A DNA stretch of 60,531 nucleotides from a virus, in IMG/VR virus record IMGVR_UViG_3300005294_000016, positions 1 to 60,531 of that record; one strand, given 5' to 3'. The notes beneath the pieces were generated by a model. The model ran no database searches and was not told where the DNA came from. It saw only the letters and a list, made by a program, of their open reading frames with translations. Within the stretch, counting starts at the first letter, position 1. Every line of letters begins with the position of its first letter. Of the stretch, positions 1,018-16,535 are shown piece after piece. The position numbers and the translations under genes were made by a program.

Positions 1018-1019
1018 TC

Positions 1020-1265: not shown

Positions 1266-1267
1266 TC

Positions 1268-2676: not shown

Positions 2677-2867
2677 CGTTGCGGTGCTGGCAATGGCCGC
2701 TGTGCTGGTCCGCACCCAAGGTCGTTCACGGGGTCCGTGGACACCACGGGTACGGTTCGTGCCCTGATCATGCGGCGGCGCTGGTTAGGGCATTGTTGGA
2801 CACTCGCCCGTCAAGAGGACTGGTGAGTGAGGGGATCGAGAAAGGTGCGAATGATGGGCCTGTCTGA
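2673..2867 (+). CDS. Small Cys/His-rich protein, 64 aa
   Basis: GTG 2673 overlaps the upstream stop as GTGA, the junction type used widely here. The protein has several Cys and His residues (HGVRGHHGYGSCPDH) and might bind zinc. An upstream ATG at 2634 is in frame but would give a 43-base overlap. Confidence 0.5.
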   Translation: MTLRCWQWPLCWSAPKVVHGVRGHHGYGSCPDHAAALVRALLDTRPSRGLVSEGIEKGANDGPV

Positions 2868-3117
2868 GAACACGCGCGGCAACCAGTCTTCGGGGGGTGG
2901 TGTGGTTGCGTTGATCATGGCGTGTCTCGCCGTCGTGATCATCTTGTTGGTGATGCAGAACCACCGGGCACAGAACACCCCGACGCCGGTACCGTCCCCC
3001 TCCGTCTCGTTGTCGGCGACGTCGGAGGATGACGCATCCTGGTCTTGCCGCACCTCCGGCAACGGGCTGTGCGGGGACACGGACGTTTGGGTGTGGGGTA
3101 TCCGCTCGTTCGCGTGA
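2851..3117 (+). CDS. Single-pass membrane protein, 88 aa
   Basis: Starts at ATG 2851 or 2854 after GAGAAAGG. One transmembrane helix at about residues 18-35, then a Pro/Ser/Thr-rich linker and a Cys-containing C-terminal part (CRTSGNGLCGD), as in exported or periplasmic-side proteins. Last gene of the first rightward operon, followed by a strong terminator. Confidence 0.65.
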   Translation: MMGLSENTRGNQSSGGGVVALIMACLAVVIILLVMQNHRAQNTPTPVPSPSVSLSATSEDDASWSCRTSGNGLCGDTDVWVWGIRSFA

Positions 3118-3129
3118 CCAGCACTTCAA

Positions 3130-3163
3130 GGCACCCCTGGGCACGTAGCCCAGGGGTGCCTTT
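3130..3163 (+). terminator. Intrinsic terminator of first rightward operon
   Basis: 13-bp perfect stem (GGCACCCCTGGGC / GCCCAGGGGTGCC) with a 5-base loop followed by TTTCTG, 12 bases after the last stop codon. Confidence 0.9.
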
Positions 3164-3279
3164 CTGTGTGCTGTCTGAGTCCGTGGGCTTCCGTTGTTGC
3201 CGGGGGGTACCTCGGGTATGGGTACGGAAAAATCTTGGCTCAGTTTGGCTCTCAGGGCGTTTTCGCAGGTCAAGGGCAC

Positions 3280-3293
3280 GGAAAGCGCTTTCC
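3280..3293. promoter_or_regulatory. LacI/GalR-type palindrome GGAAAGCGCTTTCC, copy 1
   Basis: Perfect 14-bp palindrome with the central CG typical of LacI/GalR operators. A second identical copy is at 3628-3641, just upstream of the HTH gene. Binding factor not known. Confidence 0.6.
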
Positions 3294-3310
3294 CCGATAT
3301 CCCATGATCA

Positions 3311-3324
3311 TGGGAGCGCTCCCA
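3311..3324. promoter_or_regulatory. Perfect CebR-box palindrome TGGGAGCGCTCCCA
   Basis: This 14-bp palindrome equals the known operator of the Streptomyces cellobiose/cellulose repressor CebR (LacI family). It is embedded in overlapping palindromes: CCCATGATCATGGG (3301-3314) on the left and CCCATGGG (3321-3328) on the right, sharing arms. Host repressor binding, decoy or coincidence cannot be told from sequence. Confidence 0.6.
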
Positions 3325-3340
3325 TGGGTAGCATGGGAAA

Positions 3341-3366
3341 ACCCCCGACCCATGCAGGCCGGGGGT
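3341..3366 (-). terminator. Terminator of the leftward HTH operon
   Basis: Stem ACCCCCG/CGGGGGT (3341-3347 with 3360-3366), followed on the minus strand by TTTT. It lies 14 bases after the stop of the HTH gene. Confidence 0.8.
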
Positions 3367-3379
3367 CAGGGAGTGCTGA

Positions 3380-3610
3380 TCACATGCCCCCGTGTCCGCC
3401 CTGGGGATTCCAGCGGTGTCGGTCGTACCAGCGGATCACGTCCGCCATGATCCAAATGGGTCCACTGGACACCTCCGCCCAGGGCGCCGGGAAGTCGGGG
3501 TAGCGCTTGCGCCAATTGGACACGGTCGCTCCGGTGACATGGAAGAAGCTCGCGATGTCTCCGGCGCCCGCAATGTCACGGGGCCGGGCGGTACGGTTGG
3601 CCTGACTCAT
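3380..3610 (-). CDS. Small HTH DNA-binding protein (AlpA/MerR-like), 76 aa
   Basis: Contains a helix-turn-helix of the AlpA/MerR or HTH_17 kind: AGDIASFFHVTGATVSNWRKR (about residues 15-35) followed by a proline-rich wing. Excellent ribosome site GGGAGGAAAG before ATG 3610. The palindrome GGAAAGCGCTTTCC lies 18 bp upstream of its start, which suggests autoregulation. Likely an excisionase-like or regulatory protein; no integrase is present, so a transcriptional role is more likely. Confidence 0.75.
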   Translation of the reverse strand: MSQANRTARPRDIAGAGDIASFFHVTGATVSNWRKRYPDFPAPWAEVSSGPIWIMADVIRWYDRHRWNPQGGHGGM

Positions 3611-3627
3611 GATCTTCTTTCCTCCCT

Positions 3628-3641
3628 GGAAAGCGCTTTCC
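3628..3641. promoter_or_regulatory. LacI/GalR-type palindrome GGAAAGCGCTTTCC, copy 2
   Basis: Identical to 3280-3293, placed immediately upstream of the HTH gene (start 3610) and downstream of the 54-aa gene. The pair brackets the HTH gene, about 350 bp apart, compatible with looping by a multimeric repressor. Confidence 0.6.
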
Positions 3642-3665
3642 GGTGTCTTGACCTTGGGAATGGGC

Positions 3666-3685
3666 GGGACCCCTGCCGGGGTCCC
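3666..3685 (-). terminator. Hairpin between the 54-aa gene and the HTH gene
   Basis: 8-bp perfect stem GGGACCCC/GGGGTCCC with a 4-base loop. No T-run follows on either strand, so it is a weak terminator, attenuator or processing stem. Confidence 0.5.
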
Positions 3686-3693
3686 CGTGGTGT

Positions 3694-3858
3694 TCAGCGG
3701 GTCAGGTTCGCCAGCGTCACCTTGATTTCGTTGATCTTGCGCTCAGTCTGCGCCCGGAGGGGGTGGCCTTCGGGGCAGTCGATGATCAGTGCCTCCATGA
3801 GCTCTCGCGCATCGGCGAGCTTGTCGAGCAGGTCCCGCTCAATCTCCGTGTTCGTCAT
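3694..3858 (-). CDS. Small acidic helical protein, 54 aa
   Basis: ATG 3858 preceded by GGAGAGAGGA; the protein begins MTNTEIERDLLDKLADAREL and is almost all helix, ending NLTR. One coiled-coil-like helix pair around a CPEG turn. It shares the promoter at 3904-3932 with the HTH gene downstream. Possibly a partner or modulator of that protein; function unknown. Confidence 0.7.
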   Translation of the reverse strand: MTNTEIERDLLDKLADARELMEALIIDCPEGHPLRAQTERKINEIKVTLANLTR

Positions 3859-3903
3859 GTCCGTGATCCTCTCTCCTGGCGGGCTTCCTGCCCTCCTGTG
3901 AAC

Positions 3904-3932
3904 AGTCTACACGAGTCAACCCCCTATGCCAA
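3904..3932 (-). promoter_or_regulatory. Sigma-70-type promoter of the HTH operon
   Basis: On the minus strand TTGGCA, a 17-base spacer, TAGACT; about 46 bp before the ATG at 3858. Strong match to the housekeeping consensus. Confidence 0.75.
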
Positions 3933-3993
3933 CTGGGAAAACGGAGATCACGAGCCCGTGACCAGGACAAACGTAGACGTCCAAAAATTCCAG

Positions 3994-4009
3994 TGTCAGA
4001 TACCCGACA
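3994..4009. promoter_or_regulatory. Dyad operator TGTCAGATACCCGACA
   Basis: Shares 14 of 16 bases with the operator in repeats B (14-29 and 7897-7912). About 60 bp upstream of the promoter at 3904-3932. Confidence 0.55.
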
Positions 4010-4191
4010 GAACTGTGTTCACATGGCCCGGTGGCTGGGAGGCGCCCTCAGATCCACGCAGGCGCATCGGACCCCCGTTTGCACCCAGGGACACCGGGGA
4101 TGCCGTGATCATGCGCCTACGGCGTTTCCGCAGGTCAGAAGCCATGGCCAAAACGGACACAAGGGATACCGGGCCGGTCGGCAAGCCAAGT

Positions 4192-4207
4192 GTCAGCTAC
4201 CCGACAA
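4192..4207. promoter_or_regulatory. Dyad operator TGTCAGCTACCCGACA
   Basis: Differs by one base from the copy at 3994-4009, 198 bp away, in the same non-coding region. Confidence 0.55.
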
Positions 4208-4281
4208 AACCAGACGACACAGCATCCTAGGAAGCCAGTCAGCAAGCATCCCAGCATCCTAGGATGCCATCCCTGACCAGG

Positions 4282-4317
4282 AAAAAGCCCAGGATGATCA
4301 TGTCACCCTGGGCTTTT
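4282..4317. terminator. Bidirectional terminator
   Basis: Stem GCCCAGG/CCTGGGC (4287-4313) with A-run before and TTTT after, so functional on both strands. It closes the leftward operon 7812-4329. Confidence 0.8.
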
Positions 4318-4328
4318 CGCTCACTCGG

Positions 4329-4499
4329 CTAGGACAGCCGTTCCGGATCCTCCCGCAGTTGCCGGGCAACCCTGGACACAGCCCACCGGATAGCCCCAGC
4401 ACGCGACATCCGAACCCCGGTAGCCTCCGACAGCATCCGTGCCACCTCCTGAACCTCCCGTTCCTCTGCCTCCGTCACGTCAAGATGCCACGTTGCCAC
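4329..4499 (-). CDS. Ribbon-helix-helix-like small protein, 56 aa
   Basis: Start taken at GTG 4499, which overlaps the upstream stop by 20 bases; an ATG at 4538 or 4553 is possible. A short strand (VATWHLDVTEAE) followed by two helices with TGVRMSRAGAIRWAVSRVAR resembles RHH DNA-binding proteins. Last gene of the operon. Confidence 0.6.
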   Translation of the reverse strand: MATWHLDVTEAEEREVQEVARMLSEATGVRMSRAGAIRWAVSRVARQLREDPERLS

Positions 4500-4863
4500 C
4501 AGGCACCCCCGCACGCTCGCAGTGTTCACACTCGTCATTGGGATCCCAGCCATCCGACCGGCAGGCGGGAACCAGGGACAGTTCCCCCATGTCCCATGAC
4601 CAGTACAGGCCCGACTCGGTCACGGACTGAAGATGATTCGTGGCCGCGTCGCACAGTTCGTGCACGTAATCGAACTCACTGAAGGTCAGTTCGGGCACGT
4701 CGCGCCGGAAACGGTCCACGATGTCGTGTTCGCTGTCTTCCATGGTGAACCCGTGGGCTTCCGCGAGGTCGATTGCGCGGTACTCGTTGTGCCAGCCCAT
4801 GTGACCGCTGAGGTAGCAGCCGGTATCGGCATCCGTGAAAACGATCTTCGATTCTTCCGTCAT
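4480..4863 (-). CDS. Hypothetical acidic protein, 127 aa
   Basis: ATG 4863 after GGGAGGAGG. Contains two tryptophan-rich stretches and a C-terminal CEHCERAG that could bind metal. Highly acidic (DVPELTFSEFDYVHELCD). No recognised family. Confidence 0.7.
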   Translation of the reverse strand: MTEESKIVFTDADTGCYLSGHMGWHNEYRAIDLAEAHGFTMEDSEHDIVDRFRRDVPELTFSEFDYVHELCDAATNHLQSVTESGLYWSWDMGELSLVPACRSDGWDPNDECEHCERAGVPGGNVAS

Positions 4864-5294
4864 GCCCGTGCCTCCTCCCATGCGTCCACCAGCGCGTGAC
4901 AGAGCCGGTCGGCTATCTGATACAGGGCAATGGCCGCAGCCTCAGTGAGATCCTTCGGCCATTCCTCGCTGAACTCTGGCTCTTCCTGCCACGCCCCGAG
5001 GTCCGTGAACTGACGCCACCGCTCGAAGGTGTAGACGCTCGGGGCATCGTCGGCAATCTCGTGAAGCTGTCCCCTGTCGTTCCTGTCATCCTCGGTGATG
5101 TAGCCGCCCCGGATGCCCTCAACCACAGCATCCCGAACACGGGACAGGAACAGTGCCCCCGGTGTCCAACGCTTACGGTGCCGCGAACGTCCCTCGTCAG
5201 GTTCCGAGCAGCCTGCCAGTCTGGCAAGCTCGTAGGGATTGAGGGTCGTCAGGGCACGGATGCCCCTGACCGGCTTGATGCGCGTTTTGGCCAT
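4860..5294 (-). CDS. Hypothetical protein, 144 aa
   Basis: Overlaps its downstream neighbour by ATGA. Basic N-terminus (MAKTRIKPVRGIRALTTLNP) and acidic helical C-terminal half. No domain recognised. Confidence 0.7.
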   Translation of the reverse strand: MAKTRIKPVRGIRALTTLNPYELARLAGCSEPDEGRSRHRKRWTPGALFLSRVRDAVVEGIRGGYITEDDRNDRGQLHEIADDAPSVYTFERWRQFTDLGAWQEEPEFSEEWPKDLTEAAAIALYQIADRLCHALVDAWEEARA

Positions 5295-5297
5295 GGT

Positions 5298-6053
5298 CTA
5301 GTCCACTCCACTCTCGTTGATCGCCATCTGTCCGGGGGCCACGTGGCCCCCGATTTTCGCGCCCTCGTTGACCAGGACGGGCGCGAAATCCCGTGCCCTG
5401 TCTGCGATGTCCCCCCACACCACTTCCAAGCCGTTGTGCTCCGGATAGTTGCCGAACGCGCCAGCTGACATAGCCTCCCAGAAGAGGTCCTGTACCGTCG
5501 TGTCCCCGATGTAATCCCAGACATCGGCAGCCGGAGTGTCTTCCAACTCATGCCGAAGATCCCAAGCCATGTACCCCCAGGACTCTCCGATCTCGTCATG
5601 CTCCAGGGACGACATGTCGTCCTCATCGAAGACCGGGTACTCGGTCGCCAGCTTGCACAGGATATCCAGTAGGTCAGGACCGCACTCGGCATCCTCGGTG
5701 AACCACGTGCAGAAGACCCCCAGGGAGTCGACGTTCACATACGACACGTCCACCCATGGCACCTGCGGGAAGTCACGTCGCAGTGACCGATAGTTGGACC
5801 GGTGGACCGTGGACGTCTGCCCGTAGGCGTCCCTACCCCGGGCGACATTGCCTAGGCACACGTACGGGCGGAAGCGCGGGTTGTCGTAGGTGCCCGGGGT
5901 GGCCGAAACCTTGGGAACCCAGGATTGGGTCTCCCACTCCACCCATGTCGGAGGCAGATAGCCACGGTTGGCGGCGTCTGCCGGATCAGCCCAGCCCAGA
6001 TCGAAACTGGCGCCGCGTAGGCGCGTGATCACTTCGTCGAGTGTCAGGGTCAC
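5298..6053 (-). CDS. Hypothetical acidic protein, 251 aa
   Basis: Largest protein of this leftward arm, strongly acidic, tryptophan- and aspartate-rich (DEDDMSSLEHDEIGESWGYM). Such acidic early proteins sometimes act as DNA mimics, but nothing here proves it. ATGA junction with the upstream gene. Confidence 0.7.
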   Translation of the reverse strand: MTLTLDEVITRLRGASFDLGWADPADAANRGYLPPTWVEWETQSWVPKVSATPGTYDNPRFRPYVCLGNVARGRDAYGQTSTVHRSNYRSLRRDFPQVPWVDVSYVNVDSLGVFCTWFTEDAECGPDLLDILCKLATEYPVFDEDDMSSLEHDEIGESWGYMAWDLRHELEDTPAADVWDYIGDTTVQDLFWEAMSAGAFGNYPEHNGLEVVWGDIADRARDFAPVLVNEGAKIGGHVAPGQMAINESGVD

Positions 6054-6355
6054 GACAACTCCTTGATCATGCAGTCCACGTACTCATGCGAGAAAAGATC
6101 CTTCATGGAAACCGACACCTCCGGCGACAGGGTGCCGTATTCCATGCCCCAAACGGACTCGTCACGCCCGGTTTCCTCGTCGACGACGACCAGCCCGACA
6201 TATTGCCATTCCTCCCGTTCCCAGGAACGGATCACCTCCGGGGTGTAGCAGTCGAAGTCAGTGGGCTGGTTGAGACTGTCGGCGTACACCTTGACCGTGA
6301 ACGCCCGACCGTCACGGATGATCGCCTTCGCATCAATCAAGGTCACAGAACCCAC
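6050..6355 (-). CDS. Hypothetical protein, 101 aa
   Basis: Beta-rich N-terminal half (MGSVTLIDAKAIIRDGRAFT), helical acidic end. ATGA overlap with the next gene. Unrecognised. Confidence 0.7.
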   Translation of the reverse strand: MGSVTLIDAKAIIRDGRAFTVKVYADSLNQPTDFDCYTPEVIRSWEREEWQYVGLVVVDEETGRDESVWGMEYGTLSPEVSVSMKDLFSHEYVDCMIKELS

Positions 6356-6534
6356 CCACGATCGACGTCGTAGCGCGCGTCACAGTCGTCACAGGTGACC
6401 GATGGGATTCCCCGATCACGGCGCATGCGGGCCACCGTATCCAAATCTTCCGGATGCACGTGCATCATGCCCGCAACCGGAGTGTGCCCGTAGGTCACAC
6501 AGTACGGCTCGAAATCGATGTCCGGAATGTTCAT
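6343..6534 (-). CDS. Small zinc-ribbon-like protein, 63 aa
   Basis: ATG 6534 overlaps the upstream stop. C-terminal VTCDDCDARYD plus upstream HVHPEDL gives a possible CxxC/His metal site. Unrecognised family. Confidence 0.6.
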   Translation of the reverse strand: MNIPDIDFEPYCVTYGHTPVAGMMHVHPEDLDTVARMRRDRGIPSVTCDDCDARYDVDRGWVL

Positions 6535-6731
6535 CACTTCACGTCCCTCCAACCCTCAACGCCGTCCGCACCCCAACCGTAGACGGCCGTGGTCCCGTCA
6601 TCCTTGCTGAGATCCCGACGTTCCGCGCTCCAGCCGTTCGGGCTGGCGTTCGGCCGCAGACGGCTCTTGTCGTTCGCATCCGTATAGTCCGGCATGCGAC
6701 CGTCGTCACCCTTGCTCTTTGCCACGATCAT
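6534..6731 (-). CDS. Small hypothetical protein, 65 aa
   Basis: Polar, Asp- and Arg-rich, no hydrophobic core; likely disordered. Overlaps both neighbours by a few bases. Confidence 0.6.
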   Translation of the reverse strand: MIVAKSKGDDGRMPDYTDANDKSRLRPNASPNGWSAERRDLSKDDGTTAVYGWGADGVEGWRDVK

Positions 6732-6937
6732 TTCCCTTTCTCGTGAAACTCGACATCCCCGGACACCTCATCGAAACAGGGTGCCATCTGGACATGATTG
6801 CGGAAGTAGCTCCGGACATCGGCTTGGACGTCGTCCGTGCCGTATGTGGTAGCCCAGTCGTCAGGATCGACCGTGACCGTCATGACGATTCGGACCTTCA
6901 CCGGTTTACGCACCCCAACCCCTACCCTCTCGCGCAC
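6728..6937 (-). CDS. Small hypothetical protein, 69 aa
   Basis: GTG 6937 start, with an internal GTG at 6901 as an alternative. Beta strand VKVRIVMTVTVDPDDW followed by helix with DVQADVRSYFRNHV, an alpha/beta small domain. Unrecognised. Confidence 0.6.
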   Translation of the reverse strand: MRERVGVGVRKPVKVRIVMTVTVDPDDWATTYGTDDVQADVRSYFRNHVQMAPCFDEVSGDVEFHEKGK

Positions 6938-7134
6938 ATGGCGTCAGTGATCATGTCGCCCACGGCTTCCGCCGCATCCTCGCGGTCCGTCACTCCGTGA
7001 TTGAGCATGTAAGCCGCAACCAGAAGATCACTCGCGGACACGTTACGGTCACGGGCGCCCCGCGACACGTACACCTCAACCAGTCCCGCCAGCAAAGCAA
7101 GCCCAGTCATCGCCATCCCTTCCCGTGCCACCAT
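6922..7134 (-). CDS. Small hypothetical protein, 70 aa
   Basis: Start chosen at ATG 7134 behind GGCGGAAG; ATGs at 7116 and 7110 are alternatives. Hydrophobic helix at residues 8-22 (TGLALLAGLVEVYV) and acidic helical end. Confidence 0.55.
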   Translation of the reverse strand: MVAREGMAMTGLALLAGLVEVYVSRGARDRNVSASDLLVAAYMLNHGVTDREDAAEAVGDMITDAMCARG

Positions 7135-7183
7135 GGCACTTCCGCCACCCCCGGACATGCCGGGGATGACAGGAACGCCACGG

Positions 7184-7531
7184 TCACACAGTCTCGGCCA
7201 ACAGACGCTCAGATTCCCGCAGCACATCGGCCCACGTCTTACACGTGGTCCCGTAGTCGACGTTGAAGCCCTTGATGGTTGCCGTGAACACGCGCGTAAG
7301 GTTCATGCCCGTGGTTGCGCGCGTCCGGTACGCCCGAAGCCTCATGCGGTCCGCCACCTTACGGACGCCGTCCCCCGTGACCACCGCGTCAACACCCGTC
7401 GACTCCTGGGGGTCGATCTCCGGCACGTCCACCAGTACCTGACAGTCCAGACAGTACCGGTTGCCCCGATGCGTACCGGAAAGGTTCATCGTGTGCCCTT
7501 TGTGCTGCGCGTACGACTCGATGGTGCTCAT
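7184..7531 (-). CDS. Hypothetical protein with CLDC motif, 115 aa
   Basis: ATG 7531 with GGAGG, in the junction TGATCATG. Has NRYCLDCQVLVDVPEID near residues 24-40, a possible metal knuckle, and a basic C-terminal part. Unrecognised. Confidence 0.7.
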   Translation of the reverse strand: MSTIESYAQHKGHTMNLSGTHRGNRYCLDCQVLVDVPEIDPQESTGVDAVVTGDGVRKVADRMRLRAYRTRATTGMNLTRVFTATIKGFNVDYGTTCKTWADVLRESERLLAETV

Positions 7532-7533
7532 GA

Positions 7534-7611
7534 TCACTCGCCTCCGAGTGCGAGAAAAACTGCCAGGACAACGACGCCAAGCGCCATGATCAAAATCTGA
7601 GGAACGGTCAC
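7534..7611 (-). CDS. 25-aa membrane microprotein
   Basis: GTG start at 7611 with AGGGAG six bases upstream; its TGA lies just before the next ATG (7531). Nearly the whole peptide is one hydrophobic helix (MTVPQILIMALGVVVLAVFL). Good ribosome site and tight packing between genes argue that it is real. Confidence 0.55.
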   Translation of the reverse strand: MTVPQILIMALGVVVLAVFLALGGE

Positions 7612-7620
7612 GGAAACTCC

Positions 7621-7812
7621 CTAAGCAGCTGCGGGGGCAGCAACATCCGTAGCGTTCGCCCATGTGAACTCGCGGGTACGCTTGCACCCCTTACACGTAA
7701 CGGCACCCTTGTCCGCCGTCATGTGATATTCCAGACGGTAACGGCCACAAGATCCCTTGTGCGCGCCCTGAACAAGCTTCGCAGCCCCAGGGTGGTAGTG
7801 CACCGTCCCCAT
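7621..7812 (-). CDS. Small zinc-knuckle protein, 63 aa, first gene of leftward operon
   Basis: ATG 7812 lies inside repeat B', so ribosome site and the first residues MGTV are identical to those of the gene at 114. A CKGCKRTREF motif with an upstream cysteine (SCGRYRLEYH) suggests metal binding. Ends in an Ala-rich tail. Confidence 0.7.
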   Translation of the reverse strand: MGTVHYHPGAAKLVQGAHKGSCGRYRLEYHMTADKGAVTCKGCKRTREFTWANATDVAAPAAA

Positions 7813-7925
7813 CCCCACCACTTCCTCTCTCCTGTCCGGTCGCTGTGACCGGTGCAAGACCAGGGTCCAGGGAAAACACGGATTCGCCAAGTGTTCTGTC
7901 GCCTACCCGACACCAGAATTACCAC
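7801..7925. repeat. Inverted repeat B', internal copy
   Basis: Exact reverse complement of 1-125. Contains the operator at 7897-7912, leader, ribosome site and start codon of the 7812 operon. Confidence 0.97.
7897..7912. promoter_or_regulatory. Dyad operator TGTCGCCTACCCGACA (copy in B')
   Basis: Same 16-mer as at 14-29 in opposite orientation; about 85 bp before the ATG at 7812. Confidence 0.55.
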
Positions 7926-8260
7926 GGAGGTGCCACACCGCCACCACACATGTGCCACTGGTCTCCTGGACACCCCCCGGGGAGCATTGAAGTCCAGGGC
8001 ACGAGTCTGCCCTTTGGTGGTGGACGTCTGGCGCACCCGTTGCTCCGGTGCCATCAGGCGCCGCGCTGGTACGCGACACCGGGCACCGGGAATCCCGGCC
8101 CACCCTTGACCATGGGTTGCCCGAAGATCATGGCCGTACGTGGACTACAGGGTGTTGTGCCTGGTCACGGGCCTAAGGTGATCCATTAGCACAGAGCTGT
8201 GACCTGCGTAAACTCAAGGAACACCAGGTCAAGGGCACATCATCAACTCAGTAGAATATC

Positions 8261-8292
8261 GACTATGTTGTTGATCGATGAAGAACATAGTC
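8261..8292. promoter_or_regulatory. Inverted repeat GACTATGTT-N14-AACATAGTC
   Basis: 9-bp perfect arms just downstream of a TAGAAT -10-like hexamer; could be an operator or an mRNA hairpin. Confidence 0.5.
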
Positions 8293-8465
8293 AACCAAGC
8301 ATGATGATCAAGGAACCCAGAACCCCCCCCAACCCCTCCCAGACCCCCCAGGCAACGCAATTCGGACAATCCAGGCCCCGGAAGGCAAGGGAAGCCACAT
8401 CCCCGGTGGCCCGGAGGTCCTTCTGTCCTTGATCCGACAGTAATCATTGGCATCAATATTGGTGT

Positions 8466-8483
8466 ACTGAACGGTAGTTCAGT
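8466..8483. promoter_or_regulatory. Palindrome ACTGAAC-ggta-GTTCAGT
   Basis: 7-bp arms with a 4-base centre, in the A/T-rich stretch upstream of the gene at 8620. Typical dimension for an HTH dimer operator. Confidence 0.5.
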
Positions 8484-8619
8484 TGATTCCCTAATTTTGT
8501 ATGCACACGCAACCTTATGGTTTCCAGACTTTCTGTACCCCCGCAGCGGTAACCTAGTGCACTACGTTGTGCAGTATGCAATAGTATGTCCGAATCATGG
8601 GCTATGCAATCATGAACCT

Positions 8620-9012
8620 ATGAACGAGATCGAATACCTCCCCACCCACGAAGACCTCCGGGAACAGGTACGGATAAGAGCCGCCCGCGAAGCCGGGGCC
8701 GTCCTCGACGCCATGACCCCGTACGTCAACGGAGGCATGGGAGACATCAGCCCCGGACATGTCATGGCATGGGTGGCCGTCCAGAAGTTCCGGGCCTCCC
8801 TGTACCAGGCGACAACAGCACCCGCAGACAAAGGGGACCACATTCCGGTTGCCACAGTGGCCCGGATGGTTGAGGAAGCCCGCACTGTGGCGGCCCTGGA
8901 AGCCCGTGAGGCTGTCCTCGCCGAGCAGCGGGAGTTGCGTGCCCTGGAATCCGTGAGCGCGCGGGAGAAGCTGGTCGCGGAGTTGGCGAGGATCAAAGCC
9001 CAGGCTTCCTAG
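8620..9012 (+). CDS. Coiled-coil hypothetical protein, 130 aa
   Basis: Start at ATG 8620 without a clear ribosome site. Residues 1-75 are mixed helix; residues 80-130 form a long charged helix (VEEARTVAALEAREAVLAEQ) like a coiled coil. Sits in the hub between repeats B' and A, so would exist twice if the hub is duplicated. Role in replication or regulation is only a guess. Confidence 0.65.
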   Translation: MNEIEYLPTHEDLREQVRIRAAREAGAVLDAMTPYVNGGMGDISPGHVMAWVAVQKFRASLYQATTAPADKGDHIPVATVARMVEEARTVAALEAREAVLAEQRELRALESVSAREKLVAELARIKAQAS

Positions 9013-9033
9013 GATACTGGGATGCCTGGGCTT
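8996..9033. terminator. Hairpin shared by convergent genes in the hub
   Basis: 10-bp stem AAGCCCAGGC/GCCTGGGCTT spanning the stop codon of the 8620 gene. No T-run, but the location between convergent genes fits termination. Confidence 0.55.
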
Positions 9034-9041
9034 CGGGTAGG

Positions 9042-9401
9042 TCAGTTCTCGTAGTAGCAGGCATACCGGTGACACAGGCACGGCCACGACTCCGGGAACC
9101 GTCGTGGGCCTTCCAGCATGCCAGCCTTGCAGGCTTCCTCCATGATGCGGCGAAGCTGGTAGACGCCGTGGGCACTGGAGGCCCGGTGCTTGGTGCGCTT
9201 CCAGAACTGGGTGTCGGGGAGGGTTCGGACGGCTTCGCGGATCATGTCGTCCACTTTCCAGCGGGCCGTGACCTTCCAGGATCCGTCGTCGCCCATGACG
9301 TGCCAGTTGAGTGCGTGGTGGTGGGCTTTCCCGTCGATCAGGGGTGCGAGGGCCTGGGCCACGCGGCAGTCGTGGGCTGTCTGCTTCCAGTCAAGGGTCA
9401 T
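9042..9401 (-). CDS. Hypothetical protein, 119 aa
   Basis: ATG 9401 lies seven bases after the -10-like hexamer TATCAT, so it is probably translated from a leaderless mRNA; an in-frame ATG at 9431 is less likely. Contains a His-rich stretch (GKAHHHALNWHVM) and a C-terminal CLCHRYACYYEN. Basic helical centre. No family recognised. Confidence 0.65.
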   Translation of the reverse strand: MTLDWKQTAHDCRVAQALAPLIDGKAHHHALNWHVMGDDGSWKVTARWKVDDMIREAVRTLPDTQFWKRTKHRASSAHGVYQLRRIMEEACKAGMLEGPRRFPESWPCLCHRYACYYEN

Positions 9402-9471
9402 GGGAATAATGATACCAGGATGCCTGGGCATCTTATGTCACTGAGAGTAGCGACGCCCAAACGCCCACAAC

Positions 9472-9668
9472 TTGCCCAAGACTTGCCCAAGCCCAGGACC
9501 TGCGGAAACGGCTCGGATAGAGGGTCTTGGGCAAGTTGGGCATCTTGGAGGCGCCCAGCACTCTCTTCTTTCTCTCTCTCTCTACTCTTTTATTCTCTCT
9601 TACCTCCTAAGAAGCTTCAGAGGAAAGAGATGCCCAACTTGCCCAAAACCAGGTTTCCGCAGGTCAGA
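9472..9668. other. Origin-like region: TTGCCCAA octamers, inverted repeats, pyrimidine tract
   Basis: TTGCCCAA or its complement occurs at 9472, 9483, 9527 and 9639, with near copies at 9536, 9630, 9683 and 9702. A 19-bp perfect inverted repeat (9527-9545 and 9628-9646) and, nested outside it, a 13-bp one (GACCTGCGGAAAC 9497-9509, 9653-9665) surround a 48-base tract with 45 pyrimidines (9561-9608). No gene fits. Iterons, dyads and a strand-biased tract are what one expects of a replication origin or partition site; this is inference. Confidence 0.5.
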
Positions 9669-9689
9669 GCCTGTGCATTTGTCTGGGCA

Positions 9690-9819
9690 ACCCTGGGCAT
9701 CCTGGGCAAAGTGAGCCAGGACACATAGTCAAGTGTCGCATCGGGATGGTAGGGTTCTCGTTGGGTGCGGCACGACGATCCGCACCGCATACCGGAAGGG
9801 TGAAGAGGGAGAGAGGGAG
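9690..9819. repeat. Inverted repeat A, internal copy
   Basis: Exact reverse complement of 60402-60531 over 130 bases; the first mismatch is at 9820. The outer partner stops at the last base of the window. It covers leader and purine-rich ribosome site (GAGAGGGAG) of the two divergent early operons starting near 9733 and 60488. Confidence 0.97.
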
Positions 9820-10068
9820 GCTGTAATTGAGATCTTCGTTGACTGGTCCGGAAGCTTTTCGGACGAGGGGAACATGGGGACCTGGAGCACCATGTGTGCT
9901 GAGCATGGCAGGTTCTACGTCTCAGACGGCGGCATGGCTCCCGACCAGGATGACTGCGTGGCCGCTGCGATCGAGCATGCCCTGTACGACCACGGGATCG
10001 AGCTGGTGATCGAACCGAATGACTGGCTGACATCCCATGCCAGTCCCGAGTACATGGAGCGTGTGTAG
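9733..10068 (+). CDS. Hypothetical early protein, 111 aa, first gene of rightward operon
   Basis: The open frame starts at GTG 9733 inside repeat A, giving a 29-residue N-terminus (MSHRDGRVLVGCG onward) identical to that of the protein starting at 60488. The strong ribosome site GAGAGGGAGG at 9811-9820 suggests true initiation just after the repeat, but no ATG/GTG/TTG lies there in frame (only ATT 9826), so the start is uncertain. The unique part is an acidic alpha/beta domain. Family unknown. Confidence 0.65.
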   Translation: MSHRDGRVLVGCGTTIRTAYRKGEEGEREAVIEIFVDWSGSFSDEGNMGTWSTMCAEHGRFYVSDGGMAPDQDDCVAAAIEHALYDHGIELVIEPNDWLTSHASPEYMERV

Positions 10069-10289
10069 TGGATGCGGTGATTCGGCTGGAGACCGAGTGC
10101 AAGTGGGTCAACCGGGCCGAGAAGGGCAACAACTGGGACGAGTACTGCGAGGGCGGGTACGTCCTGAACGGTGACGGGCTCCGGGTGCGCCTGTGCCCTC
10201 GTTGTCACGGACGAGGATCCGTGCCGACCATAACCGGTTGGGAGCTGTTGGACTTCGTGAAGTTCTGGGCCGACAAGGAGGGGTCGTGA
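10068..10289 (+). CDS. Small zinc-ribbon-like protein, 73 aa
   Basis: GTG 10068 overlaps the previous TAG by one base. Contains CPRCHGRGSVP, the DnaJ-type CxxCxGxG motif once, plus other cysteines (C11, C27). Probably metal-binding. Confidence 0.7.
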   Translation: MDAVIRLETECKWVNRAEKGNNWDEYCEGGYVLNGDGLRVRLCPRCHGRGSVPTITGWELLDFVKFWADKEGS

Positions 10290-10492
10290 AGCGCTGGGTG
10301 GTGCAGGACAGCTACACGTTTCACGACGGAACTCTGTCCTACATGGATCTTTCGGAACACTGGTTCCGGTGGTCTGCCCGTAGTTACGCCAGGACTCTGT
10401 GCCGTTTCCTGCGCCCCAGGGACGGCAGGTTCGTGATCGTCGTGGCCGACCGTAAGCGCGAGTACAAGAACGAGAGGATCGGGGTGCAATGA
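10286..10492 (+). CDS. Small basic protein, 68 aa
   Basis: GTGA junction with the upstream gene. Starts MKRWVVQDSYTFHDGTLSYM, strongly basic and aromatic. Unrecognised. Confidence 0.65.
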   Translation: MKRWVVQDSYTFHDGTLSYMDLSEHWFRWSARSYARTLCRFLRPRDGRFVIVVADRKREYKNERIGVQ

Positions 10493-10692
10493 GGTTCGTG
10501 GTGTACCGCAGCATGTATTTCGGCAGTGTCCGGCGTGACTTGACGCATCGGACCTTCTGGTTGCGCGGGAACGCGCACGCGTACGTGTGGAACGAGGTTC
10601 CGGACGCGTCCGTGGTGAACCCGGTGGGCCGTCACGCGTGGGTGATCGAGGACCGCTGGAGCGGTGAAGAGGTGGAGGTGTTTCGCTGGTGA
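10489..10692 (+). CDS. Small hypothetical protein, 67 aa
   Basis: ATGA junction. Beta-rich, Arg/Trp-rich; resembles the preceding protein in size and composition but not clearly in sequence. Unrecognised. Confidence 0.65.
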   Translation: MRFVVYRSMYFGSVRRDLTHRTFWLRGNAHAYVWNEVPDASVVNPVGRHAWVIEDRWSGEEVEVFRW

Positions 10693-11039
10693 AGTACAAG
10701 ATCAAGGTGACCGAGGTGGACGCGGTCTTCTGGGACGGCACCAACCGTCAGGAGGTCATCGACTTCCTGAAGCCGTACCTGGCGCGTTACGGGGACTGGC
10801 AGGAATCGGGGCCGTACTTCGGGGCCGACGAGTGTCCGAGTTGCGACAGTCCGAACTGTCAGGACTGCAACTACGCCAACAACATGGTCCAGTTCTACTG
10901 GGGCGACGACATCGAAGTGGACGAGAAGTCCTGGATCGTGTTCTCCGTCAGCCCGGAGTCAGACCCCTCCGAGCCGGAGTTCGACGTCACGGTGGACTCG
11001 GACGAACTGTTCCGCATCCACCACGAGGTGCCGCAGTGA
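10689..11039 (+). CDS. Hypothetical protein with cysteine cluster, 116 aa
   Basis: GTG 10689 start in a GTGA overlap. Centre carries CPSCDSPNCQDC (four cysteines, residues 50-61), a compact metal knuckle, followed by an acidic beta-rich part. The N-terminus KYKIKVTEVDAVFWDG resembles phage proteins of unknown function that read V-x-A-x-x-W-D-G. Confidence 0.7.
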   Translation: MKYKIKVTEVDAVFWDGTNRQEVIDFLKPYLARYGDWQESGPYFGADECPSCDSPNCQDCNYANNMVQFYWGDDIEVDEKSWIVFSVSPESDPSEPEFDVTVDSDELFRIHHEVPQ

Positions 11040-11224
11040 CGTACGCGCCCTCAACGCACCGGATCAGGCAGCAGTACACCGGTCCTCGCCGACACGAGAT
11101 CACCGTCACGACCAGGGAGCCCGGCGTGGATGTGCGGCGCCAGGTCTCCGGTGGTGACCCGGAAGTCATCGCATGGCTTCGGGCACTGGCTGACGAACTG
11201 GAGCGAGGTACCGTAACCGCATGA
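11036..11224 (+). CDS. Small hypothetical protein, 62 aa
   Basis: GTGA overlap with upstream. Basic N-terminal half and an amphipathic C-terminal helix (EVIAWLRALADELERG). Unrecognised. Confidence 0.65.
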   Translation: MTYAPSTHRIRQQYTGPRRHEITVTTREPGVDVRRQVSGGDPEVIAWLRALADELERGTVTA

Positions 11225-11547
11225 ACGAACTGTTCCGGCCGAAGCCGTGGGAGTTCACCGGACGCCGGACGGAGCGCAATGCACCGTCCGGCACCTTGTG
11301 TTCGGTGTCCCCGTGGTGTACGGCCCCGAAGCCCCGAGGCAACATGGCACACTGCGCCACGTGTCATATGTCCTATTCGGGTGTTTGGGCATTCGACAAG
11401 CATCGCAAAGACGGGTGGTGCCTTGACCCCGTCAAGTGCGGACTGGTCCAAGACGACGAAGGCATCTGGCGCTGCCCGCCGATGTCCCCCGACTACAAGG
11501 CATCACGGGAGGTGCTGGCTGCGACCAGGAGACGTCGAAAGCCCTAG
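11221..11547 (+). CDS. FDxHR-type putative zinc-binding protein, 108 aa
   Basis: Has the phage signature HCATCHMSYSG...FDKHR...GWCLDP (residues 44-70), matching the FDxHR family of putative zinc-binding phage proteins. ATGA overlap with upstream. Ends in a basic RRRRK tail that may contact nucleic acid. Molecular role is not established for the family. Confidence 0.8.
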   Translation: MNELFRPKPWEFTGRRTERNAPSGTLCSVSPWCTAPKPRGNMAHCATCHMSYSGVWAFDKHRKDGWCLDPVKCGLVQDDEGIWRCPPMSPDYKASREVLAATRRRRKP

Positions 11548-11601
11548 ACCCATACCCGAGTAACCCCCCGAGGCTTCTGTGGCCTCAGATTGGAGAAGCG
11601 A

Positions 11602-12069
11602 GTGGAAATTCCTTGGGCCACCGAGCCCTACAGTGAGATCATTCCCGGCCTGTGGATGGGCGGACACTACCGGGCCGACAGAGACGACCAGACCCTCGGC
11701 GTGCCCGTGAAGGTCACCGACGAGTTCGGCCTCGTGGTGTCCCTGTTCCAGACGGACCTGCATGACTGCGGACCGGACCGGGGCATTCCGGAGATCGTGT
11801 TCCGGATCCCGGACGGCCCACTGGACAAGTGTCAGCGCCGGGTTGCCCAAGACTTGGCGAACCTGATCGTCCACGCCCTCTCCGGCAACCTGAAGGTCCT
11901 GGTCCGCTGCCAGGCCGGATACAACCGGTCCGGTCTGGTCGTCGCGTACGCCCTGATGGCTCTGGACTTCAGCCCAATTGGGGCTGTGCTACAGGTCCGG
12001 GAGAAGCGCTCATTCTGGGCGCTGTGCAACAGCGATTTTCTCGACTACCTGGAGGAAGATGATGTCTGA
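11602..12069 (+). CDS. Dual-specificity/tyrosine phosphatase-like protein, 155 aa
   Basis: GTG 11602 seven bases after GGAG. Carries the phosphatase P-loop CX5R as VLVRCQAGYNRSGLV (C near residue 107) with an upstream Asp-rich loop (RIPDGPL) that could supply the general acid, and the fold layout of small dual-specificity phosphatases. It would dephosphorylate proteins, nucleotides or RNA ends in the host early in infection. Substrate unknown; a phosphatase in a phage early operon is uncommon but known. Confidence 0.8.
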   Translation: MEIPWATEPYSEIIPGLWMGGHYRADRDDQTLGVPVKVTDEFGLVVSLFQTDLHDCGPDRGIPEIVFRIPDGPLDKCQRRVAQDLANLIVHALSGNLKVLVRCQAGYNRSGLVVAYALMALDFSPIGAVLQVREKRSFWALCNSDFLDYLEEDDV

Positions 12070-12253
12070 AGCCGCCATCCACGAGGTCCTGACCCCGTGC
12101 CGGTCGGTGCTCAAGCTTCCCGAGGAGGAGTACAACTGCGGACACTGGGACGATCACGAGGACGAGTTCCATGAGGCCCTGTTCCCCAACTTCATCATCC
12201 AGTGGAACGACGAAGGCCGCTGGATCCACATGTATCGAGGGATTCTGCGATGA
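12062..12253 (+). CDS. Small acidic protein, 63 aa
   Basis: ATG 12062 after GGAGGA, overlapping the phosphatase stop. Acidic centre HWDDHEDEFHEALF. Unrecognised. Confidence 0.65.
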   Translation: MSEAAIHEVLTPCRSVLKLPEEEYNCGHWDDHEDEFHEALFPNFIIQWNDEGRWIHMYRGILR

Positions 12254-12579
12254 GTGAGGTCGAGTACACGTACTGTCCCGGCGAGGACTGCGTCCGGAAG
12301 GTCGTGGTCTGGTCCCTGCCTGACGGGCAGCTCGGGGTCAACTTCTGCTGCGTGGACTGCTGGAATTACACGTACGCTCTGATGCTCCAGGACTTCGGGG
12401 CGGGCGGGGATGCCACCGAGGACGAGCTGTTCCACGGACACTCGGCCCAGTGCGTCAAGCGTGCCCAGCAGCGCGAGACGGCCCCGGTGACCGAACTCGC
12501 CACGTACGTCATCATGGGTCCGTCGCACCACCAGGCGATCCGGGACGCACACCGTGAACCCCCGGTGTCGGCGGTGTAA
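12250..12579 (+). CDS. Cysteine-rich hypothetical protein, 109 aa
   Basis: ATGA junction. CPGEDC (residues 9-14) and CCVDC (33-37) form a likely four-cysteine zinc site. The rest is helical. Unrecognised family. Confidence 0.7.
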   Translation: MSEVEYTYCPGEDCVRKVVVWSLPDGQLGVNFCCVDCWNYTYALMLQDFGAGGDATEDELFHGHSAQCVKRAQQRETAPVTELATYVIMGPSHHQAIRDAHREPPVSAV

Positions 12580-12736
12580 GAAGGTCAGCTATGCCAGCCA
12601 CTTGGAAGCCCGCTGGGCGATCCTGACCCAGTGGCGGTACTTCAAGGCCCCGGAGCTGTGGTTCTACGAATGCCCACACACTCCGGGGACCTGGCATCTG
12701 ACCAGCAGGAAAGGCTACAGCACCAACAGGCAGTGA
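12554..12736 (+). CDS. Small zinc-finger-like protein, 60 aa
   Basis: GTG 12554, overlapping upstream by 26 bases. CRRCKK (residues 5-10) and CPHTPGTWHLT (40-50) give a C-C-C-H type site. This arrangement, with WxLTSR near the end, resembles many small phage zinc proteins. Last gene before the terminator. Confidence 0.65.
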   Translation: MNPRCRRCKKVSYASHLEARWAILTQWRYFKAPELWFYECPHTPGTWHLTSRKGYSTNRQ

Positions 12737-12739
12737 ACC

Positions 12740-12766
12740 GGCCCCCAGGTTGCCCTGGGGGCCTTT
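12740..12766. terminator. Terminator between convergent operons
   Basis: 10-bp stem GGCCCCCAGG/CCTGGGGGCC, loop of 4, TTTCTC after it on the plus strand. Lies immediately before the 3' end of the leftward primase gene. Confidence 0.85.
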
Positions 12767-12767
12767 C

Positions 12768-15428
12768 TCATCTCCAGCCGACGTGGCTCTGGGGTCGTGT
12801 GCCGCCTTGTGCCTGTGCCTGCCACGTGTGCGGGTTGATGCCGATGCCTCTGCGGACCCGGATCCCTCCGGGGTTCTTGACGGCCTCGTACCCGAGTTCG
12901 GTCATTCGGTTACCGAACTTGATCTTGCCCATGGGGAAGCCGTTGTTCTGCCTCACCCACTCCACATACACCGAATACGCTTGGGCAACCGTCACCTCGG
13001 ACTTCGGGTCCAGGACGATGATGCCCTCATCGGACGCGTTGGCCAGGAACTCCGACACGCCATCCGACTCCTCCCGGTACTCCTTCACCGCCTCACGCAG
13101 CGCTGGAGGCTCACCGAGACCTTCGGTCAGGTAGGCGCGGACCCCTTCCAGGATCCAGTTGAAGATCCCCGCCAGTTCGTTGTCGATCATCCACTGGCCG
13201 AGCTTGCCCTCACGGGCCTCCTTGGCGCTGCCGTCCTCGTTGTAGAACGTGTTCGGGAACTCGATCGGCTTCACGCGGCGCCAAATCGCCCCATCGCCCG
13301 CGTTCAGCTTCGGCCTGAAGTTCGAGGCCATGAAGATCGTGAACTGCGGCTTCCAGGAGATGTTCGACTGGTACAGGGCGTGCGAGCTGATCTCATCACC
13401 ACCAGTAACCCGCTTCACCAGCTCCTCGTTCAACATCGTCCGCTCCGACGTCTCCGACGTCGCCACGAACCGGGTACCCCGAAGCGCGTGCAGATCATTG
13501 GCCCGCCGGGACCCGTCATCCTTCGTGTCCCGGAACGTGTTCGGGGCCGCCGTCGCCGCGAAATCCCCGAAAGCCTCCTGCATCACTTCGAAGAACACCG
13601 ACTTGCCGCAGCCCGTCTGCCCGTGCAGGACGAAGAACGCGGCCTCCGACGTGTCCCCCAGCAACGTCATCCCGATGGCCCGCTGAAGATAACCCCGATA
13701 CCCGGCATCAGGAAGGACCTCCTCCAGGTACCGGCGCCACCGGGGAGCCTGAGCATCCGGGTCGAACTTGACCCCGATCTTCTTCGTCAACATCAGCTCA
13801 GGAGCGTGCGGGTACGCCACCACATCCGGAACCGGGGTCACCGACAGGTCCGACAGGTCCAAGACCCCGTTGTCGACGGCGATCACATTCTTGTCGGCGT
13901 CAAACTGCTCCACCGAACAGGCCACAGCCTTCTGTGTACCGAACCGGCTCTTGACCGCCTTGTGCCCACGGTCCGACCGGCACCCGGCAGCGAAAGTGGC
14001 CAACTTCTCGGCGGACTTCAGTTCCTCCTTCGCCTCCGCGATCAGGTCCTTGTCCTCCGACAACCGGGCGTTCGCCAGGGCGATGCCAGCAGTGTCGACG
14101 AGTTTGCCGGTGTGGTCCTTGAGCTTCTTCGTCATGATCTCCACGGCGTCGTCAACCTCGGCACGCTTCGACTCGATCCACACACCGTCCTGGTAGACCC
14201 GCCACGCCTTCTCCTCGAAGACGTTGCGGAACTGACGGCCGTACAGGTTCACCATGGCGTGCGCGACGCCGGTCTCCGTGTACTCGTCGAGGGCGAACTT
14301 CGGGACGGCCGGGACGTCCATGGCTATCTCGATGTCCGTGAAGTCCGGCATCGTCAACGACTGAGACTTGACCCGTTCCGTCAGTGGGATCTCGTCAACC
14401 CAGTTCGACATCGGCTGCCTCTCCCCACCGAACCCTTGACGTCGCAGAGCACGGGCGGCGTCCGAGAAATTCCCGTTGTGTTCCATGAACGCGTAGAAGG
14501 CGAACTTCGAGATCGGTTCCTCGGTTGGCAGACCGGCCCCCGAAGACCAGACGTACAGGTTGTCCGACCCCTGGTAGTACAGCGAAGCCGACTGCCCGTC
14601 CCGCACCTCTTTACCCGGGCGGGTGTAGTACAGCTCCGAACCCGGGCCACGGGAGTGGAAGGTCCACCCGTACTCCGACAGCAACTGGCCCCAGTCGGTC
14701 TTCCGGTTGAAGTCGGCTCCCGGACCTTCCCCGTTGTCGGTGGGGATACCTGCCGGACGTGGGGGGGCTTCCGGCGTCTCCGGCATCTCATCCAGAGCTT
14801 CGTGGATCGCCGCGACCAGCAGCTCCCGCTGCTCCCACGTGATCGTGGGGACTTCCCCGATCCGTCCCGCCTGGCACGTCCACGCCTCACCGGACTTGTG
14901 GACCTTCCCCGACGACGGCGCGACGACCACGTAGCCTCCCTCACCCCGAGTCTCCGCCAAGGTGACGGACCGCAGCAGCGGGGAGGCTTTCAGCTCTTCA
15001 GCGTCCGGGGGGCGGTTGGCGATCTTCTGGTTGCCGGGCACCGGGTGGTCGGCGATGCGGTACAGAAAGTGCAGGCCACCGGATGGGGTGGACTCGCAGT
15101 AGCCGTCGTGGACCAGCAGCGTCCACAGCCACAGGATCCCGGCCTTCGCTGCGGCCTGGTCGATCTTGTCCAGGTGGTCCCCGGACGATGCGCGACCTTC
15201 CAGCTCCAGCATCTCCAGATTCCCGGACGCCTGCCCGCAGATCAGCCCGACACCCTGGTCCGGGGCCGTCTTGTACCAGCGCTCCACCTGCTCACGGGTG
15301 GGCCGGTCGCTCTGGAACTCCTTCCACCGGGCGAATGGGCGCTTCGTGCCGTCCGCGATGGTGGGGATCACCGTGAAACCCTTGTCGTGCCAGGTCAGGG
15401 CTCCGTCGAGGTGCGGGTTCAAGGTCAT
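12768..15428 (-). CDS. Primase-polymerase / SF3 (D5-like) helicase, 886 aa
   Basis: N-terminal prim-pol domain (residues about 15-200) with GVGLICGQASGNLEMLELEG and later STPSGGLHFLY and GYVVVAPSS signatures; C-terminal superfamily-3 helicase with Walker A GQTGCGKSVFFE (about residue 597), a long D5 N-terminal region before it and the sensor FMASNFRP. Such proteins make primers, may extend DNA, and unwind at the origin. It is the only replication polymerase seen, so the host polymerase is probably recruited. Start ATG 15428 after GGAGGAG. Confidence 0.93.
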   Translation of the reverse strand: MTLNPHLDGALTWHDKGFTVIPTIADGTKRPFARWKEFQSDRPTREQVERWYKTAPDQGVGLICGQASGNLEMLELEGRASSGDHLDKIDQAAAKAGILWLWTLLVHDGYCESTPSGGLHFLYRIADHPVPGNQKIANRPPDAEELKASPLLRSVTLAETRGEGGYVVVAPSSGKVHKSGEAWTCQAGRIGEVPTITWEQRELLVAAIHEALDEMPETPEAPPRPAGIPTDNGEGPGADFNRKTDWGQLLSEYGWTFHSRGPGSELYYTRPGKEVRDGQSASLYYQGSDNLYVWSSGAGLPTEEPISKFAFYAFMEHNGNFSDAARALRRQGFGGERQPMSNWVDEIPLTERVKSQSLTMPDFTDIEIAMDVPAVPKFALDEYTETGVAHAMVNLYGRQFRNVFEEKAWRVYQDGVWIESKRAEVDDAVEIMTKKLKDHTGKLVDTAGIALANARLSEDKDLIAEAKEELKSAEKLATFAAGCRSDRGHKAVKSRFGTQKAVACSVEQFDADKNVIAVDNGVLDLSDLSVTPVPDVVAYPHAPELMLTKKIGVKFDPDAQAPRWRRYLEEVLPDAGYRGYLQRAIGMTLLGDTSEAAFFVLHGQTGCGKSVFFEVMQEAFGDFAATAAPNTFRDTKDDGSRRANDLHALRGTRFVATSETSERTMLNEELVKRVTGGDEISSHALYQSNISWKPQFTIFMASNFRPKLNAGDGAIWRRVKPIEFPNTFYNEDGSAKEAREGKLGQWMIDNELAGIFNWILEGVRAYLTEGLGEPPALREAVKEYREESDGVSEFLANASDEGIIVLDPKSEVTVAQAYSVYVEWVRQNNGFPMGKIKFGNRMTELGYEAVKNPGGIRVRRGIGINPHTWQAQAQGGTRPQSHVGWR

Positions 15429-15482
15429 TTACTCCTCCGCATCTCCAGATGCTATACTGCACCTGGTCATTTAGTTCTCCAG

Positions 15483-15515
15483 AAAACCCCCAGGATCGAG
15501 CCCCTGGGGGTTTTT
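15483..15515. terminator. Bidirectional terminator upstream of primase
   Basis: 8-bp stem CCCCCAGG/CCTGGGGG with AAAA before and TTTTT after. It ends the leftward transcript from 16215, so the primase needs its own promoter; TATAGC near 15455 is a -10 candidate on the minus strand. Confidence 0.85.
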
Positions 15516-15572
15516 CACGTCTGGGGTAGATCTAGATCCTAGCGCTCCGGTCCGTCAGGTTCCACCGGCAGC

Positions 15573-15761: not shown

Positions 15762-15815
15762 GTCGAAGGTCCCACGGCCCCGGCCACACGACCGGGGCCA
15801 ACTCACGCCTGCGGG

Positions 15816-16082: not shown

Positions 16083-16113
16083 GGTGTCTCCCTTGCTGGT
16101 TGGGGCGGGCGGG

Positions 16114-16475: not shown

Positions 16476-16486
16476 CCTCTCTCCAG

Positions 16487-16523: not shown

Positions 16524-16535
16524 CGTATCTCATGA

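Follow-up and report, generated by a model that had tools for sequence, protein, structure and literature searches.

The window, i.e. the complete 60,531-nucleotide stretch of the IMG/VR virus contig IMGVR_UViG_3300005294_000016 analysed here, is best explained by a circular map in which two copies of an origin-like promoter hub separate two arms whose flipping is tolerated; we assign this overall reading a probability of roughly 0.88. Its geometrical core is directly observed, as in the window and in its clade the hub, designated R, borders on the small arm with one of its edges and on the large arm with the other, and this holds for either end of each arm. That the map is circular (of a molecule which may itself be circular or linear and circularly permuted), about 62.3 kb in size and equipped with R twice, in inverted and essentially identical copies of which the second is inferred, appears very likely to us. 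Two copies of 2,019 bp would then lie between arm A (7.7 kb) and arm B (50.6 kb); the second copy, whose interior is inferred, would have been collapsed by the assembler, leaving a record without its inner 1,764 bp. Whether R serves as a hub of both regulation and replication we consider evenly poised: promoter and origin activity are inferred, the latter from architecture alone, namely from an inverted pair and an iteron-like cluster.

The window, which represents a soil phage, encodes the proteins expected of tailed phages (terminase, portal, major head protein and maturation protease, together with a Prim-Pol/D5 primase) and satisfies what is required of the Caudoviricetes with an HK97-type major capsid protein, a portal and a terminase large subunit (phrog_777, phrog_776, phrog_979/phrog_38). 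Its closest cultured relatives, recognisable by the capsid only, are actinobacteriophages, e.g. Actinoplanes phage phiAsp2 (40% identity over 65%), and a search of genome contigs for a prophage or host returned merely one distant Streptomyces contig. The cultured phages searched yielded no match to the hub DNA or the hub proteins, and a search of IMG/VR by exact pattern likewise revealed no close relatives of them. Cluster-B-like or Rosebush-like actinobacteriophages and phiAsp2 resemble the window in possessing a related major capsid protein. Unlike the window, phiAsp2 has no long inverted repeat, the matches between separate sites being no longer than 72–78 bp at 85% and a single self-overlapping match comprising 106 bp at 75%.

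Inverted ends and the implied map

Each end of the window is a perfect inverted copy of an internal stretch, over 125 and 130 bases, respectively, and right up to the window edge (Table 1), just as the sequence-only reading made earlier of this DNA had stated. The two ends pair with two different internal sites and not with each other, and both matches stop inward, the sequences diverging after base 125 and before base 60402. BLAST revealed no further inverted repeat of comparable size within the 60,531-base record. Chance matching can be excluded because only 5 of 10,600 random internal 40-mers from the genomes compared have an exact inverted copy in their own contig. A path continued beyond base 60531 would run through 9689..7926 in reverse complement and then reach base 1, and we could reproduce from the coordinates the closed circle of 62,295 bp which had been proposed on the same occasion.

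Table 1. Features of the window; gene calls were made with a simple purpose-written script.
Feature	Position	Strand	Remark
Hub R, complete copy, 2,019 bp; small arm to its left, large arm to its right	7801..9819	.	edges from inverted matches; equivalent hubs at the same place in relatives
Second hub copy R', small-arm edge, cut at contig end	1..125	-	exact reverse complement of 7801-7925
Second hub copy R', large-arm edge, cut at contig end	60402..60531	-	exact reverse complement of 9690-9819
Small arm A, 7,675 bp	126..7800	.	A arms of relatives have genes in common
Gene calls of small arm A, inward from both hub copies	105-2236 and 7531-3380	+ and -	
Large arm B, 50,582 bp	9820..60401	.	all structural and replication genes
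Conserved hub gene, 130 aa	8620..9012	+	family present in every hub examined
Second hub gene, 119 aa	9042..9401	-	no relatives found
Inverted pair, left arm, 23 bp	9523..9545	+	pair flanks pyrimidine/AT-rich spacer
Inverted pair, right arm, 23 bp	9628..9650	-	
Iteron-like GCCCA / TGGGC cluster around the inverted pair	9455..9708	.	candidate initiator-binding array
Operon outward from R into B, 9 predicted genes	9892..12579	+	
Operon outward from R' into B, 22 predicted genes	51288..60401	-	first start codon at hub edge (60401)
Prim-Pol / D5-type primase-helicase	12768..15428	-	about 3 kb from hub edge
Phage exonuclease (phrog_1674), recombination gene	17164..18051	-	
RusA-like Holliday junction resolvase	51557..51952	-	
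Terminase large subunit	23970-25406		

A second assembly of the window virus, the 35,349-base contig IMGVR 2162886007_000112, is identical to window positions 9757–45104 except for its final base and has its start within the hub, at a distance of 63 bases from the right edge. A shift of the break from 125–130 to 63 bases is what the edge of a repeat produces in an assembly graph, whereas a fixed physical end would stay in place. The related contig G022 (55,457 bases with 123-base inverted ends) resembles, taken by itself, a linear genome with terminal inverted repeats. G034, which originates from another metagenome and is 100% identical to G022 over 28,389 bases, runs beyond the right end of the latter through a hub of 1,412 bp and a small arm of 3,292 bp into an inverted copy of the far edge of this hub. 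Since G034 reads through one of the apparent ends, the ends of G022 have to be considered assembly breaks at a repeat rather than termini; G054, from a third metagenome, ends at the same 123 bases. Combining G022 with G034 places the two ends of the large arm at one edge of the hub and those of the small arm at the opposite edge. The alternative retained by the sequence-only reading, namely real short terminal inverted repeats, is contradicted for this virus by the read-through, and the window does not qualify as a case of terminal inverted repeats of the PRD1 or phi29 kind either, its ends matching two internal sites.

Several further features of the window were recorded. Genes for Glu, Gly and Phe tRNAs are clustered at 23113–23617 with a separate Met tRNA gene at 18314–18388, and a ThyX-type thymidylate synthase (PF02511) is encoded at 21077–21826. 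A 590-aa gene without any Pfam match occupies the minus strand (36812–38584) within the mostly plus-strand structural region, and two adjacent genes at 52008–52884, whose DNA is about 72% identical, resemble a tandem duplication.

Recurrence in related viruses

The clade comprises those relatives which share the major capsid protein and the Prim-Pol/D5 primase. The ends of each related contig were compared with the remainder of the same contig, the signature being a contig end which recurs in exactly inverted form, either internally or at the opposite end. It is present in 24 contigs, the window included, which represent about 22 viruses (G020 and G035 derive from the same virus, as do G022 and G034), and in 22 of the 29 clade contigs of at least 50 kb; the other seven of this size have no inverted ends, as expected of fragments. 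In six contigs (the window, G011, G018, G030, G031 and G047) one internal hub carries the signature at its left as well as its right edge. The window and these five relatives fulfil one criterion of a quadripartite map, namely that a given unique arm borders with both of its ends on one repeat, in inverted orientation. Throughout the clade, full hubs measure 1,172–2,019 bp, small arms 3.3–9.3 kb and large arms about 50–58 kb, and many of the overlaps amount to exactly 127 bases. An outgroup of six contigs with related capsid and without matching primase was inspected in the same way, and the inverted signature is absent from all six. Direct end repeats of 123–127 bases, the usual sign of a circular map, are found in five of them (G024, G025, G026, G029 and G053); the sixth, G023, is without end repeats and constitutes a fragment identical to G024. 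As a side observation, the primase reading frame of G050 (43369–45969) is interrupted by one TGA.

The interpretation put forward from the letters alone, namely that a longer inverted repeat of a circular quadripartite map had been collapsed, gains support from four results. In the second assembly of the window virus, the break again falls inside the right hub edge, now with an overlap of 63 bases, and about 22 viruses display the inverted signature. A length of exactly 127 bases, as the k-mer of an assembler would give, is frequent among the overlaps, and the direct end repeats of the related phages with ordinary circular map comprise 123–127 bases. Finally, the apparent terminus in the virus represented by G022 and G034 is read through into hub and small arm. 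No clade contig examined holds both complete copies of the hub; identity is seen at the edges over up to 130 bases, the interior presumably having been collapsed by the assemblers.

The hub leads to the primase end of the large arm in the window, G011, G015, G020, G027, G030, G032 and G034, and to the opposite end in G014, G017, G018, G021, G031 and G033. The small arm, too, meets the internal hub by either of its ends, since shared small-arm genes place G033 against G011, G014, G018, G030, G031 and G034. If P and D denote the primase-proximal and primase-distal end of B, and x and y the two ends of A, the paths in different relatives are (y,P) in G011, G030 and G034, (x,D) in G033 and (y,D) in G014, G018 and G031; the orientation of arm A in G020 was omitted because its markers conflict. 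Both kinds of path among relatives fit two inverted hub copies. This diversity does not show that molecules flip, as an assembler may choose either route through a collapsed repeat. In G017, the two B edges are 100% identical over 82 bp, while the hubs of G017 and G021, two viruses with 89% identity, are 88% identical to each other. The identity of the G017 edges despite the divergence of its hub from that of G021 points to concerted evolution.

We consider it somewhat probable that homologous recombination encoded by the phage maintains the identity of the copies and permits A to flip with respect to B, whereby the flipping itself is inferred. Recombination between the inverted hubs would flip one arm. 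Such flipping would be harmless and gene control would remain unchanged because each arm end always meets the same hub edge, and this would also explain the stability of such repeats. Homologous exchange is likelier than a site-specific reaction, since an exonuclease and a RusA-like resolvase are present and neither a tyrosine nor a large serine recombinase (PF00589, PF07508) was found in the window; small resolvase/invertase domains were outside this search. As a tyrosine recombinase was not found in 26 related records either, inversion driven by an integrase was rejected. Invertible segments of the Mu G or P1 C kind make use of short recombination sites and of a DNA invertase (a small serine recombinase); the repeats of the present case comprise 1.2–2.0 kb, and PF00589 and PF07508 are absent.

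Anatomy of the hub and its gene family

In most relatives the palindromic element TGCATGTTGATATGCATC is located just upstream of the hub gene, and an AT-rich stretch flanked by inverted short repeats is often found near the large-arm edge of the hub. When each record was scanned as a whole, the top-ranking wide-loop inverted pair fell inside the hub in 8 of 13 viruses, and for short-repeat clusters the same was true of 7 of 14. The window belongs to both groups, and outside its hub none of 967 test windows contains an inverted pair and none of 1160 a repeat cluster which is as good. The inverted-pair test, the repeat-cluster test or both are unremarkable in G017, G027, G033, G034 and G030, and the sequence of the iterons is not conserved among relatives. 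According to our model, each copy of R would contain an origin-like element consisting of inverted iterons around an AT-rich stretch. In the hubs of G017 and G021, the spacer between the inverted arms near the large-arm edge is mostly replaced and the flanking arms are conserved; this spacer behaves as if it were free to change. Tandem repeat arrays were noticed in two relatives (G005, 2245–3014; G028, 21509–21988).

On the outward strand, G is enriched in the final 60 bases of the hub next to the large arm, with a mean skew of +0.53 in 20 viruses compared to 0 in the control. The edge itself coincides with the start of the first gene, whose leader and often also start codon are inside the hub (at many large-arm edges the start codon is no more than about 30 bases away), with divergence of the coding sequences setting in right after the edge. 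The first gene is directed outward at 23 of 24 large-arm edges (one-sided binomial 1.5e-6 versus a coin toss). A corresponding rule for the arm-A edges is unsupported (5/16). The large-arm edges thus meet the criterion of a herpesvirus-type arrangement, in which the repeat carries leader and gene start and the unique arm the gene body. The outward leaders with their start codons in R may switch on the operons at both B ends together, in which case the window operons at 9892–12579 and 60401–51288 would be fired from the same control sequence.

One gene of 105–130 aa, directed toward the large arm, is present in every hub examined. A single-sequence comparison of the window hub gene with the family of the relatives did not reveal any link, and intermediates from G047 and G037 (both from hubs) and G043 were needed to join it to the family. 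By means of these homologues the link is established in hhalign with a probability of 94.5 and an E-value of 8e-8, and the ten best matches of the G047/G037/G043 profile are the window gene and nine hub-family genes of relatives. The AlphaFold model of the window hub gene product is all-helical with a mean pLDDT of 86. Foldseek, run with two separate models, ranks terminase small subunits among the best named matches (probabilities of 0.94 and 0.75 for one, and of 0.90 and 0.80 for the other), the E-values being 0.08 or worse. No sequence match of the hub gene to known small terminases was found, and the only notable family match is phrog_645, which is labelled RNase E. On the basis of these predicted models, the hub gene possibly encodes a terminase small subunit, which we regard as a lead; each copy of R would then carry such a gene and perhaps a packaging site too. 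The PacA-like small terminase of phiAsp2 was tried as a homologue of the hub gene or of any other clade gene and gave no match.

The same observations bear on a packaging-centred variant of our model, in which R would mainly be a pac region and the hub gene a small terminase, packaging would start from either copy and enter the large arm from either end, and the functions as promoter and origin would be secondary. Apart from the Foldseek ranking obtained with both models, this variant can invoke that no small terminase was recognised beside the large terminase gene among the genes checked. Yet, Foldseek E-values of at least 0.08 and a sole notable family match to an RNase E do not recommend it, and we hold it to be rather unlikely.

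Competing explanations and known parallels

Linear virion DNA with real short terminal inverted repeats, ending at 1 and 60531, or, in another version, a linear genome which corresponds to the large arm and bears inverted termini of 70–127 bp, would agree with the appearance of G009, G022, G038, G039, G042, G046, G048 and G050, which look exactly like that. Neither version, however, accounts for window ends matching internal sites instead of one another, for overlaps which are often exactly 127 bases long and have equally long direct repeats as their counterpart in the outgroup, for the passage of G034 through the G022 'terminus', or for the halt of the other assembly of the window virus at 63 instead of 125–130 bases; even jointly they retain a negligible probability. 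We attach as little weight to a chimeric or fold-back artefact, brought about, e.g., by whole-genome amplification or a misjoin. Admittedly, every sequence compared, like the window record itself, is a metagenome assembly, but a hub with the same gene family is situated at the large-arm ends in about 22 viruses and different assemblies break at identical edges.

A slight chance, hardly larger, remains that each molecule carries one hub only and that the population is a mixture in which a mobile or excisable hub occupies either arm junction. While two full copies are indeed contained in no single contig, an empty A–B junction does not occur in any contig examined either, the hub always lying between A and B; moreover, the window is devoid of a recognised integrase or large serine recombinase, the 26 related records are devoid of a recognised tyrosine recombinase, and no obvious target-site duplication is discernible at the hub flanks. 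Similarly improbable is an inserted IS-like or homing element present twice by happenstance and without any role of its own. A repeat of 1–2 kb which encodes small genes may suggest such an element, but neither a transposase nor a homing nuclease was found among the hub genes, the hub edges coincide with gene starts, and location, gene family and orientation are constant across divergent viruses, indicating vertical inheritance.

The circular map with two inverted hubs, which we prefer, has parallels in quite different systems. Chloroplast genomes have a circular map with two identical inverted copies, which are kept identical, and with small and large single-copy arms. The window phage would, as inferred, share this quadripartite circular plan, but is a virus, and its repeat comprises 1–2 kb instead of about 20–25 kb and is probably regulatory rather than rRNA-bearing. 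The yeast 2-micron plasmid is a small circle whose two inverted repeats give rise to flip isomers. Its flipping relies on the site-specific recombinase Flp, whereas no tyrosine or large serine recombinase was detected in the window. Terminal inverted repeats of the PRD1 or phi29 type are mimicked by contigs of the large arm alone; in contrast to those of PRD1 and phi29, the 'termini' in the present case are assembly breaks within an internal repeat.

The repeats of herpes simplex virus hold oriS as well as the promoters and leaders of US1 and US12, whose coding parts are in the unique arm; the arms invert, the capsid has the HK97 fold and packaging is accomplished by a terminase. The capsid and packaging machineries of herpesviruses and tailed phages are of common ancestry. 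The herpes simplex genome comprises two unique arms between inverted repeats (PMC7824580). The map inferred for the window resembles it in that two unique arms are separated by inverted repeats. In contrast, the repeats have no recognisable homology, the host of the window virus is presumably a bacterium, its map is a circle with one repeat type instead of linear with two, and origin, packaging role and isomers are unproven in the window phage. Only tentatively do we suggest that an actinophage-like clade of tailed phages has evolved a herpesvirus-like plan with two inverted hubs which unite origin, promoter-leader and perhaps packaging functions and remain identical through recombination, with free flipping of arms during infection and with joint firing of the early operons at the two ends of the large arm. 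A full-text word search of the open-access literature yielded no description of a tailed phage with an inverted-repeat two-arm map, so we regard the arrangement as a known genome plan in a group for which no earlier report was found. An independent phage case would offer a simpler system for asking what purpose such repeats serve.

Finally, a contig which holds nothing but the large arm looks like a complete genome bounded by inverted terminal repeats, and collapsed internal inverted repeats are one concrete cause of falsely assigned completeness. CheckV counts it as evidence of a closed genome if a contig ends in inverted repeats of 20 bp or longer; it reports 624 such contigs in IMG/VR, and only 33.2% of those with estimated completeness are of high quality (PMC8116208). 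With inverted ends of 70–127 bp, the eight pseudo-terminal contigs listed above would meet the CheckV rule, and each of them is without the small arm (3–9 kb where seen) and the hub interior.
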